From Bacteroidota bacterium (GTDB lineage Bacteria; Bacteroidota; Bacteroidia; Bacteroidales; JADFUO01): a stretch of DNA of 15,284 bases. Location: contig JADFUO010000354.1 in the NCBI GenBank assembly GCA_015222115.1, positions 1 to 15,284 of the forward strand, written 5' to 3'. The position numbers were made by a program, and so were the translations under genes. Position 1 is the first letter of the stretch; each line of letters begins with the position of its first letter. The notes below the pieces were generated by a model. That model saw only the letters and a list, made by a program, of their open reading frames with translations, made no database searches and had not been told where the DNA came from. This document shows positions 5,332-8,068 of this stretch, one piece after another.

Positions 5332-6555
5332 ATGAAAACATTAATCAAAATAGCATGGCGGAATCTTTGGCGGAATAAAAAAAGGACATTTATTACTACC
5401 GCATCAATTTTGCTGGCTGTTTTTCTGGCAATGTTTATGCGTTCAATGCAAATTGGCAGTTATGACAATATGATACTGGCAGGAATAACCGAGGTTGGAT
5501 ATATACAAATACATGACAGTGGTTATTGGGATAACCGGTCAATTAACCATTCCTTTATTTATTCGGAAACTCTTAAAGAAAAAATCAAAAAAGTAAAAAA
5601 TGTCAGTTCTTTAATTCCCCGATTAGAAACATTTGCTTTAGGATCTTATGGTGAACAAACCAAAGGTGTTATGCTTATCGGTACAGATCCTGAAATAGAA
5701 AATAACCAAACTAACTTAGCCAATAAAATTGTTAAAGGAAGGTATCTGAATAAAAATGATAACGGCATTCTTGTTGCTGAAAGATTAGCGAAATATCTAA
5801 AAGTAGATGTTAACGACACCCTTGTTTTATTAGGACAAGGTTTTCAGGGAATTACTGCTGCAGGCAAATACAGGATTATCGGAATATTACATTTTCTGTC
5901 ACCACAAATGGACAACCAAATGGTTTATATGAGCTTGAGCAATGCACAGAATTTAATTTCCCCTTATGTACCTGATATATTATCATCGGTTTCCATTATG
6001 TTGCATAAACCTTCAAAGCTTGAGCAAACGATTGATGAATTGGAAAAATCACTTGGTAATGAATACGAAATAATTAGCTGGAGAAAAATGTTAACTGAAA
6101 TAGTACAGGCAATTCAAAGTGATAATGCCGGCGGAATAATAATGCTGGCTATACTTTATATAATAATAGCTTTTGGAATATTTGGCACAGTATTGATGAT
6201 GACTATGGAACGCCGCAAAGAATTTGCAGTTATGGTAGCTGTAGGTATGCGACGGGGAAAATTAACAAAGGTTGTGTTATCGGAAACTATTTTTATTGGA
6301 TTTATGGGAGTAATTTCAGGTATTATTCTTAGTCTGCCGTTTTTAATTTATTTGTATTATAACCCTATACCTCTTACCGGTGAAATGGCAACCATGGCTA
6401 TTGAATACAATATGGATCCCATTTTGCCATTTTCTCTGGCACCATATATTTTTGTGAATCAGGGAATCACTGTGCTGATTATCACTTTAATTGCGGCAAC
6501 TTATCCTGTTATTATTATTAACAGGTTTAATATTTTAAATGCATTCAGGAGATGA
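5332..6555 (+). CDS. ABC transporter permease, FtsX/MacB/LolC-E type (first of two)
   Basis: A 407-residue inner-membrane subunit with the four-helix topology of MacB/LolCE permeases: one transmembrane helix at about 20-40, a large periplasmic domain at about 41-265 (MacB_PCD-like), then three helices near 267-290, 316-342 and 372-395. The cytoplasmic start carries the family's WRNLWRNKKRT motif, and the coupling-helix region MERRKEFAVMVAVGM at 292-306 is the FtsX-domain signature contacting the ATPase. These permeases do not form a channel; in known relatives they extract lipoproteins from the inner membrane or drive periplasmic partners by mechanotransmission. The gene follows the LolA-like gene by 37 bp. 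The second permease, a distant paralogue, lies 274 bp downstream, separated by an inserted repeat element whose left flanking repeat begins inside this gene's stop codon. Confidence 0.9.
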   Translation: MKTLIKIAWRNLWRNKKRTFITTASILLAVFLAMFMRSMQIGSYDNMILAGITEVGYIQIHDSGYWDNRSINHSFIYSETLKEKIKKVKNVSSLIPRLETFALGSYGEQTKGVMLIGTDPEIENNQTNLANKIVKGRYLNKNDNGILVAERLAKYLKVDVNDTLVLLGQGFQGITAAGKYRIIGILHFLSPQMDNQMVYMSLSNAQNLISPYVPDILSSVSIMLHKPSKLEQTIDELEKSLGNEYEIISWRKMLTEIVQAIQSDNAGGIIMLAILYIIIAFGIFGTVLMMTMERRKEFAVMVAVGMRRGKLTKVVLSETIFIGFMGVISGIILSLPFLIYLYYNPIPLTGEMATMAIEYNMDPILPFSLAPYIFVNQGITVLIITLIAATYPVIIINRFNILNAFRR

Positions 6556-6807
6556 AATTAGGTAACCATTCACAGAACACTGAAATTGGAAATTAGAAAT
6601 TAGAAAAAATGATAAGAGTTTACGAATTATAGGTTTACCCCGTTGGATACTTATATATTGGTGGATAACTTATTATTAGAAGTTATTATCCTACGGGGTT
6701 TACAAACTATCGGAAGAATTGGTTGAATGCGTTTATCAACAGGACAAAAATATGATAATACAAATTTCTAATTTCTAATTTCAAACCGTGAACGGTTACG
6801 AAATTAG
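6554..6807. mobile_element. MITE-like nested inverted-repeat element with 8-bp flanking direct repeats
   Basis: The core at 6562-6799 is 238 bp. It begins GTAACCATTCACAG and ends CCGTGAACGGTTAC; these ends are inverted repeats matching at 12 of 14 positions. Both sides are flanked by the identical octamer GAAATTAG, at 6554-6561 and 6800-6807, as expected of a target-site duplication. Inside, an 18-bp perfect inverted repeat pairs 6589-6606 with 6765-6782 and is built from the heptamer AAATTAG. A central hairpin spans 6637-6699. No open reading frame of useful size is present, so it is non-autonomous. Removing the core and one octamer leaves 28 bp between the permease genes, typical of this operon. 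A caution is that GAAATTAG also occurs inside the element, so the flanking copies could be low-complexity coincidence. Confidence 0.6.
6637..6699. repeat. Central hairpin of the inserted element
   Basis: ACCCCGTTGGATA at 6637-6649 pairs with TATCCTACGGGGT at 6687-6699 (12 of 13 positions). A second perfect 7-bp stem inside it pairs ATAACTT 6665-6671 with AAGTTAT 6680-6686 around an 8-base loop. In operon mRNA this would be a strong structure between the two permease cistrons. No T-run follows, so it is not a typical intrinsic terminator. Confidence 0.65.
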
Positions 6808-6829: not shown

Positions 6830-8068
6830 ATGATCTGGTCAATATCATGGAGAAATGTTTGGCGAAACAAATTAAGAAGCCTTATAATAATAATTGCTGT
6901 TACAGTTGGTTTATTCGGAGGAATTATTTCAGCAGCATTTATGGTTGGCTGGTTGGAGCAGCGAACTGATGCTGCTATTGAATATGAAATCTCAAACATA
7001 CAATTGCACAATCCTAAGTTTCTGCTGAACGAAGAAATCAATTTTACCATAAATAACCCTGACAAAATAATAAATGAAATTAATACAGTTGAAGGTGTTA
7101 AAGCTGTTTGCAAAAGAACCAAAAGCACAGCAATGGCAAGCACTGCCACTACTGGAACAGGAATTATTATTAACGGTATAAACCCTGCACAGGAAAAACA
7201 AGTTACAAAACTTTATGAAAAATTATTGCAAGGTCATTACTTTGAGAAAGATGATAAAATTCCGGCAGTTATCGGACAAAAATTAGCATCAAAATTAAAT
7301 GCTTCAGTAGGTTCAAAAATCGTAATTACAATAGCAAATGTTGAAGGAATAATCACTTATGGAGCTTTCAGGGTGATTGGTATTTATAAAACAAGCAATG
7401 ATATGTTTGATGAAGTTAACGTTTTTGTGAGAAATGATGAACTGATAAACCTTATTAGTTTTGATAAAAATAAAACTTCAGAAATTGCAGTTGCATTAGA
7501 TGAAAACAAAGAAACCAATAAAATTGCAGAAATACTCAGGAAGAAATTCAATAAGGAAATAACTGAAGATAAATTTGTAATTCAAACATGGATTGAAATT
7601 CAGCCTACGTTGAATGCCATGAATGAAATGATGAATTATTTTTCATTTATTTTTCAAATAGTGATTTTAATTGCACTGGCATTTGGAATCGTAAACACAA
7701 TGCTAATGGTTGTTATGGAACGAACACACGAAATAGGTATGCTTATGGCAATTGGCATGAATAAAAACAGGATATTTTTCATGATCATGCTTGAAACTAT
7801 TTTCCTTTCAATTATTGGAGGAATAGGCGGTATTATTATCAGTTATTTTGTTGTGGGATATTTTTCAATACATGGAATTAATTTATCAATTGTTTCCGAA
7901 GGGCTTAATTCTATTGGTTTTAGCTCAATTGTTTATTTAAATATTGACTCACAATTTTACATTTTCACAGCATTGTTGGTTATTATAACGGCAATTATAT
8001 CAAGCATTTATCCAGCTTGCAAAGCGCTTAAATTAAAGCCGGCGGATGCTGTCAGGGAGAATGCATAA
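6830..8068 (+). CDS. ABC transporter permease, FtsX/MacB/LolC-E type (second of two)
   Basis: A 412-residue paralogue of the upstream permease, sharing the N-terminal SWRNVWRNKLRS motif and the same topology: helix 1 at about 17-40, a periplasmic domain to about 265, then helices near 271-295, 316-343 and 376-397. The FtsX signature is clearer here, MERTHEIGMLMAIGM at 296-310, and the C-terminus YPACKALKLKPADAVREN at 394-411 is typical of MacB/LolCE permeases. Two different permeases plus one ATPase suggest a heterodimeric LolCE-like complex rather than a MacB homodimer; the ATPase is a separate protein 15 bp downstream. The start codon lies just beyond the inserted element, 22 bp past its right flanking repeat, and the coding sequence appears intact. 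Confidence 0.9.
   Translation: MIWSISWRNVWRNKLRSLIIIIAVTVGLFGGIISAAFMVGWLEQRTDAAIEYEISNIQLHNPKFLLNEEINFTINNPDKIINEINTVEGVKAVCKRTKSTAMASTATTGTGIIINGINPAQEKQVTKLYEKLLQGHYFEKDDKIPAVIGQKLASKLNASVGSKIVITIANVEGIITYGAFRVIGIYKTSNDMFDEVNVFVRNDELINLISFDKNKTSEIAVALDENKETNKIAEILRKKFNKEITEDKFVIQTWIEIQPTLNAMNEMMNYFSFIFQIVILIALAFGIVNTMLMVVMERTHEIGMLMAIGMNKNRIFFMIMLETIFLSIIGGIGGIIISYFVVGYFSIHGINLSIVSEGLNSIGFSSIVYLNIDSQFYIFTALLVIITAIISSIYPACKALKLKPADAVRENA

Follow-up and report, generated by a model that had tools for sequence, protein, structure and literature searches.

A probable internally deleted mobile element with heptamer arms and remnants of a PF05635 gene between two permease genes of a Bacteroidales bacterium

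Described systems and the insert in the permease operon

Insertion sequences of the IS66 family have ends starting with GTAA and make an 8-bp target duplication; REP/RAYT systems consist of a single gene between inverted repeats and of further, orphan repeats scattered through the genome; and the STRR of cyanobacteria are heptanucleotide repeats. The term STRR is used in PMC5088731. Passages of two other papers report heptameric arrays of GGGAATC in Xanthomonas and GGGGAYT in Nostoc (PMC4692102) and of TAACTGA in Beggiatoaceae (PMC4679880). Two Xanthomonas genomes contain 70 and 75 convergent inverted heptamer pairs, and the preferred places of the repeats are, on the sense strand, within 50 bp of stop codons and, on the antisense strand, the 50 bp upstream of ORFs (PMC4692102). 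Intervening sequences (IVS) of rRNA with ORFs of the PF05635 type (S23/IVP) are known from Leptospira and Coxiella and have been termed selfish, and a Xanthomonas relative of the PF05635 protein is a homopentamer (PMC4990558). PF05635 ORFs were also reported in rRNA insertions of CPR bacteria (PMC11270868), and a figure legend dealing with CRISPR-associated adaptation modules mentions PF05635 (PMC10910872). PF05635 ORFs in rRNA IVS and heptamer arrays with convergent pairs are known already; the link between PF05635 and the heptamers is drawn here. It is drawn from repeat sequences other than the Xanthomonas, Nostoc and Beggiatoaceae repeats of PMC4692102 and PMC4679880 and from other genomes; in the main texts of these two papers the terms S23 and helix bundle have 0 occurrences. 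No paper joining PF05635 genes to heptamer arrays was found among open-access papers, judged by titles, abstract beginnings and passages.

The stretch of DNA analyzed here (the window; 15,284 nucleotides, contig JADFUO010000354.1) carries an insert between two permease genes of one operon (Table 1). Like the 23S rRNA IVS, PF05635 units are short, encode a protein that goes by the same family name (S23/IVP), have complementary borders that form a stem, and have an ORF that runs in the direction of the host transcript (PMC4990558). They differ from the IVS in that: i) they lie at many sites in protein operons, not in rRNA helices, the window insert being between the permease genes and not within a 23S rRNA helix; ii) the arms of their stem consist of heptamers in tandem, with a sequence that changes from one gene to the next; and iii) the window family has outer ends and 8-bp duplications besides. 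With the known heptameric arrays they share 7-bp tandem repeats that are mostly intergenic. The window family also has the 8-bp duplication and the GTAA-starting ends of IS66 insertion sequences and MITEs. It differs from IS66 in that no end sequence past the first bases was found in common with the 12 IS66 loci inspected, in that a four-helix-bundle gene takes the place of transposase genes in its full-length copies, and in that the host genome, which is 83% complete, lacks the IS66 transposase domain (PF03050). As in REP/RAYT systems, the PF05635 gene lies between inverted repeats and orphan repeats are dispersed; the protein, however, is of the four-helix-bundle family, and tandem heptamers stand where REP/RAYT systems have single palindromes.

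Table 1. Parts of the insert and the flanking genes (positions in the window)
Feature	Position	Strand	Remarks
FtsX/MacB-like ABC permease, upstream operon gene	5332..6555	+	
Left 8-bp target duplication	6554..6561	.	GAAATTAG; read from the sequence and from the duplications of the family
Left terminal inverted repeat	6562..6575	+	GTAACCATTCACAG; family form GTAASCRTTCACAG
Left heptamer array	6581..6606	+	GAAATTG GAAATTA GAAATTA G
PF05635 ORF start, remnant	6609..6638	+	MIRVYEL*VY, in-frame stop at 6630-6632; unbroken G001:C60 has MKRVYELEVY
Hairpin insert within the ORF remnant	6639..6703	.	65 bp; GGTTTAC on either side (6632-6638, 6697-6703)
ORF remnant	6704..6756	+	KLSEEL fused to C-terminal LNAFINRTKI*; middle of gene deleted
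Right heptamer array, inverted	6763..6785	-	TTTCTAATTTCTAATTTC
Right terminal inverted repeat	6786..6799	-	CCGTGAACGGTTAC
Right 8-bp target duplication	6800..6807	.	GAAATTAG
FtsX/MacB-like ABC permease, downstream operon gene	6830..8068	+	

A preliminary description of the locus had proposed a MITE-like element with nested symmetric layers and no coding capacity. Its structural observations were confirmed on re-reading: the terminal inverted repeats are imperfect (12 of 14 positions complementary), the flanking octamers are identical, and both the inner inverted heptamer layer and the central hairpin (arms at 6637-6649 and 6687-6699) are present. The inner arms are 21 nt long and 95% complementary. 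Recomputation likewise gave a gap of 274 bp between the permease ORFs, which falls to 28 bp after subtraction of the 238-bp core and one octamer. At 238 bp, with such ends and such a duplication, the window copy looks like a MITE. The octamer is similar to the inner heptamers and has a third copy at 6589-6596; taken alone, the duplication of the window copy could be due to chance, a point settled by the other copies of the family.

The lack of coding capacity holds in the sense that the window copy has no intact PF05635 ORF; its core nonetheless contains remnants of one, namely its two extremities, the first of which is soon interrupted by a stop. The account of the nested layers was right about a nested hairpin and incomplete for the rest, as the inner heptamers are the arms of a PF05635 unit and the core is a gene with its middle deleted. 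To judge from the sequence, the outermost layer consists of transposon ends, the next of the arms of a four-helix-bundle unit, and the central one is a palindrome that came later. The GGTTTAC-flanked hairpin insert is common to loci L039 and L040, and occurs with extra sequence in L074, which comes from another family.

The dispersed family and its four-helix-bundle gene

Copies elsewhere in the genome and in relatives, which the preliminary description had proposed to look for, are numerous. The host genome has 24 matching places on 13 contigs, window included (40 of 53 first-look candidates were scored); on contigs C341 and C472 the match is confined to the heptamer array. Matches occur in 8 of the 60 genomes searched, host included, and are strong in G000-G003, which belong to one genus, and in G055, from another family of the same order. 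Twenty-five candidate end pairs yielded 23 delimited elements, two over-long pairings of L039 and L068 being dropped; three pairs among the 23 are the same site in two genomes. A perfect 8-bp duplication flanks 13 of the 23 copies and one with a single mismatch flanks 5, compared to 3 and 8, respectively, of 600 control cross-pairings. End pairs were ranked partly on the duplication match, which biases towards duplications, and the empty sites are therefore the cleaner proof of mobility. At L042, G002 has the element between two copies of CATGATTC, and G001 and G003 have an empty site with a single CATGATTA. At L060, G001 has it between two copies of TTTTGCTG, and the empty site of G000 has a single TTTTGCAG. 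On these sequence comparisons the window insert is a mobile, non-autonomous element.

At the window locus itself, the empty site with a single GAAATTAG that had been anticipated was not found cleanly in the sister genomes G001 and G002, and no close orthologue of the permease locus was found in G003. In G001 the left end of the element is joined to the right flank at the GAAATTAG repeat, a deleted remnant, suggesting that the insertion predates that split and was deleted later in G001. The permease gap of G002 (L147) contains an unrelated heptamer hairpin, TTATAAG/TTATTTG ... ATATAAC, in which no PF05635 remnant was found. The permease gap may be a repeated target.

The predicted RNA fold of the window insert is very stable (-65.8 kcal/mol vs -40.6 +/- 4.15 for shuffled versions; z -6.07; 0 of 200 shuffles as stable). 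Such a fold would be expected if the permeases were separated by a structured regulatory RNA under conservation, as might the conservation of the permease pair in G001 and in the part of it that the G002 contig covers. This explanation is very improbable and was rejected: no Rfam family matches in the window at threshold, and copies lie at unrelated sites with target duplications and have empty sites. Furthermore, the orthologous gap in the sisters is a remnant or unrelated sequence. The preliminary description had held that an absence of other copies, together with a conserved RNA at orthologous sites, would speak against a mobile element; the dispersed copies and the differing gaps of the sisters are the opposite.

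The longest copies, 492-495 bp, occupy one site, L015 in G000 and L067 in G001. This complete form consists of a 14-bp end, a heptamer array, a PF05635 ORF, the array inverted, and the other 14-bp end. In an alignment of the 23 elements, the ends, heptamer arrays and short inner pieces are found in most, and the long middle, which completes an ORF of 118 codons, only in L015 and L067. The ORF matches PF05635 (23S rRNA-intervening sequence protein; E 2.6e-22, 79.5 bits, cut-off 33.8) and TIGR02436 (four helix bundle protein; E 5.6e-23, 81.2 bits, cut-off 24), and its best solved-structure match is XCC0516 (PDB 2gsc); a single-sequence structure prediction (mean pLDDT 48) was left unused. In the wider PF05635-protein family, some members score against DGR Avd models. 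Other copies of the family ORF are two unbroken ones in G055, one with two stops in G002 and one with three stops in G000. None of these four has both ends: one end is present in L078 (G055), none is recognizable in L077 (G055), and a single end can be recognized in each of the two broken copies, L045 and L012. The complete form is therefore delimited at one site only. The dN/dS ratio is 0.12-0.24 among the four unbroken copies (G000, G001, G055) and 0.14-0.25 in comparisons with broken copies, the equally low values of the latter reflecting the period before their decay. By this measure the family ORF is under purifying selection.

One deletion junction, with one base variable, is common to 10 of the loci retrieved. 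They include four delimited elements, L060, L061, L064 and L068, each at a site of its own, as expected were the deleted form copied in trans. Stable pairing of the arms is predicted for the window copy and for the full-length copy. In L015 both arms contain an identical extra block, and arms may be kept alike by conversion between the inverted copies.

The preliminary description had assigned the movement of the element to a transposase elsewhere in the genome. Mobility, 8-bp duplications and dispersed copies bear out a non-autonomous element; the transposase was not found, the host genome, at 83% completeness, having no IS66 domain. Nor was a full-length insertion sequence with matching ends recovered from the host genome at its present completeness or from 12 IS66 loci of relatives (L092-L103), none of which has the family end at two or fewer mismatches when the end motif alone is searched. 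In a search confined to ends beginning GTA plus 8-bp duplications, 3 of the 12 (L092, L093, L097) have GTAA or GTAT ends and an 8-bp duplication. The duplication and the GTAA-type ends of the window family are what an IS66 derivative would have, and from these we infer an IS66-like mobilization, in which the copies would be moved in trans by a DDE-type transposase recognizing GTAASC...GSTTAC ends.

Thus the insert probably belongs, as a non-autonomous copy with an internal deletion, to a mobile family that in its complete form has a PF05635 ORF between heptamer arms. In the window copy the gene would have been lost and a small palindrome inserted into the remnant, leaving a transcribed hairpin between the permeases. 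Among the 23 end-bounded copies, which are mostly non-coding, orientation in the sense of both neighboring genes outnumbers the opposite 19 to 1, a count that includes the three same-site pairs; this is unusual for a MITE, and either a preference at insertion or later selection may lie behind it.

Heptamer arms around PF05635 genes

PF05635 matches number 14 in the host genome. Among 60 genomes of relatives, 44 have such genes, and so do 157 of 198 genomes sampled across the phylum. The loci examined for arms are mostly best-scoring search matches, not a random draw, and the 200 bp upstream of each gene were compared with the 200 bp downstream. In a first sample of 43 loci, 32 exceeded the 95th and 23 the 99th percentile of 677 cross-gene pairings. 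Adding 15 named GTDB loci, and setting aside the broken L111 and L117, the duplicate L153, and L114 for its short flank, gave a second sample of 54; of these, 40 exceeded the 95th percentile of the controls and 37 exceeded all 41 control ORFs, taken from the same loci and the window. A periodicity of 7, peaking at 14, 21 and 28, was seen in both flanks of this sample and not in the controls. In a third sample, of 30 new loci from the phylum, 16 scored higher than any of 19 control ORFs, and period 7 was less marked. The fourth sample comprised 14 plasmid loci (12 cyanobacterial, one Gemmatirosa, one Azospirillum), 7 of which were above all 16 control ORFs. The flanks were G-richer upstream and C-richer downstream at 57/69, 29/30 and 13/14 loci.

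Outside Bacteroidota and Cyanobacteriota, clear arms are present in 3 of 4 Chloroflexota loci (L155, L156 and L167; not L165), both Verrucomicrobiota loci (L162, L164) and Gemmatirosa (L299), and absent from L160 (Anaerovorax) and L300 (Azospirillum). Overall, one third to half of the PF05635 genes sampled have no clear arms. A subfamily of ~150 residues (L110, L191, L203; G000, G001, G055), with scores of 10.0, 15.2 and 11.8, is without visible heptamers; these genes are possibly settled copies.

The repeat unit varies from gene to gene (GTTTGAC, GGGAACA, AGTAGTC, etc.) and is the same in both arms of one gene. Among 112 loci, 74 of which have arms, arm similarity correlated with protein similarity (Mantel r 0.30, or 0.27 after correction for composition; 0 of 999 permutations in either case). 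A heptamer code was considered and found weak, since many proteins that are 55-60% identical have unrelated heptamers. Both neighbors are co-oriented at 85 of 115 PF05635 loci, the gene running along with them in 81 and opposed in 4. This strand bias was dropped as a proof of an RNA-level mechanism, ordinary short ORFs being likewise oriented 17 to 2.

A search for any ends plus a duplication around 43 PF05635 genes gave scattered matches, and its threshold missed the full-length copy L109; the end motif was therefore checked directly. In 121 PF05635 loci, some of them duplicate or broken, both ends at three or fewer mismatches were found only in L109. The outer ends thus mark the window family and perhaps a few relatives. 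One PF05635 gene, L192 (G001:C170), has a perfect left end, GTAACCGTTCACAG, 74 bp upstream, the other side being off the contig. Another, L115 (G000:C484), has a left end with one mismatch, GTAACCATTCACAC, 42 bp upstream and no recognizable other end. The recurrence of heptamers as arms around PF05635 genes makes them more than a decoration of the MITE in the window family.

Gene and arms as insertions, and their significance

Related genomes and plasmids allow the unit of gene and arms to be compared with sites that lack it. A unit of ~580 bp in G001 (L143) is missing from G002, with CATTG probable at both edges. In plasmid C of Trichormus variabilis a unit lies within a conjugation operon, between AAAAAGTAAT and GTAATTAAC; the Nostoc linckia and Aulosira laxa plasmids, ~97.5% identical to it, are empty and read AAAAAGTAATTAAC, and Nostoc C052 has a remnant at the site. 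Nostoc ATCC 53789 has two units in related operons, each missing from homologous plasmids (Nostoc C052, C057); one lies at overlapping stop and start codons, and its empty site is GAGGTAATGGG. In Picosynechococcus PCC 7003 a unit lies between cas10 and cmr3, where PCC 7002 has 12 bp, and in Pseudanabaena galeata one lies between cas6 and cas4. The cyanobacterial plasmid loci L254 and L250 are accordingly heptamer-armed four-helix-bundle genes in CRISPR operons (cas10-cmr3; cas6-cas4). A target duplication of such units is clean in L253 (GTAAT), ambiguous in L293 (TTCTA, which may belong to the end of the element) and L296 (TAATG/TTATG), and was not recognized in L294, L295, L250 and L254. In several cases, then, gene and arms make up the segment that a relative lacks, and such units are insertions. 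One PF05635 query gave no match in phage records.

Heptamer arrays also occur without the gene. Relatives have such arrays at the same site (L259, L261): Nostoc ATCC 53789 has heptamer hairpins without a gene where Nostoc edaphicum has gene and arms, and at the site of the P. galeata unit Pseudanabaena ABRG5-3 has only different heptamers, in a short array. Dispersed arrays number 29 in 183 kb of G001 (first 20 contigs, L168-L187), compared to 1 in one base-shuffled version, and 6 in 112 kb of G055, compared to 2. Four pairs of the G001 arrays are inverted within 900 bp, and two hold remnants of a PF05635 gene. Using 7 of 11 genes of G001 and 15 of 20 of G055, orphan arrays nearer to the resident arms than 30 draws from other genomes were 13 of 29 in G001 and 1 of 6 in G055. 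Several G001 arrays have GTTTGAC/GTTTGAT, as do the arms of the resident G001:C32 gene. At L172 (8504-9349), an inverted pair of GTTTGAC heptamers surrounds an ORF of 250 residues that is not a PF05635 gene.

If the arms were instead regulatory parts of resident PF05635 genes, such as terminators or autoregulatory hairpins, their stable predicted pairing in the window and full-length copies and the weak tracking of protein similarity by arm sequence would be expected. The joint absence of gene and arms (Trichormus vs Nostoc/Aulosira, Nostoc ATCC 53789 vs C052/C057, G001 vs G002), and the arrays that exist without a gene, at the same site and dispersed, make this improbable. An ordinary IS66-type MITE that captured a four-helix-bundle gene by chance, with heptamers and gene as passengers, has more in its favor: the 8-bp duplications and GTAA-type ends suit IS66, the deleted copies spread without the gene, and the complete form is delimited at a single site. 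It is nevertheless unlikely in view of the heptamer arms that flank PF05635 genes without these ends, the several end-less cases in which gene and arms are an insertion, and the purifying selection on the ORF.

PF05635 genes are here read as small mobile units that come to rest between the genes of operons, and as free-standing relatives of the rRNA intervening sequences. The heptamer arms and gene would originally have been an independent unit, of a wider class than the window family, and the inner unit would move by a route of its own with a shorter duplication. In the wider class the PF05635 protein may bind or use its heptamer-armed RNA or DNA hairpin, as may be compared with the 23S rRNA IVS; it is a candidate for a role in movement. 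We tentatively propose, as a reading that could well be right, that PF05635 genes belong to an unrecognized mobile class consisting of the gene and inverted, hypervariable 7-bp arrays, with a duplication of ~5 bp and a preference for tight operon gaps, often stop/start junctions. The class would be present in Bacteroidota and Cyanobacteriota, and probably in Chloroflexota, Verrucomicrobiota and Gemmatimonadota; heptamer arrays would be its orphan traces and the 23S rRNA IVS a specialized branch.

This proposal joins things that have been studied separately: abundant four-helix-bundle genes so far without an assigned function, tandem heptamer arrays without an assigned origin, and rRNA intervening sequences. 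It might account for PF05635-type genes within CRISPR and conjugation operons. Insertions such as the cas10-cmr3 and cas6-cas4 units might explain the CRISPR association of the PF05635 family that is indicated in the figure legend of PMC10910872. If gene and repeats are indeed one mobile unit, the binding target of the protein and the mover of the unit become directly testable.
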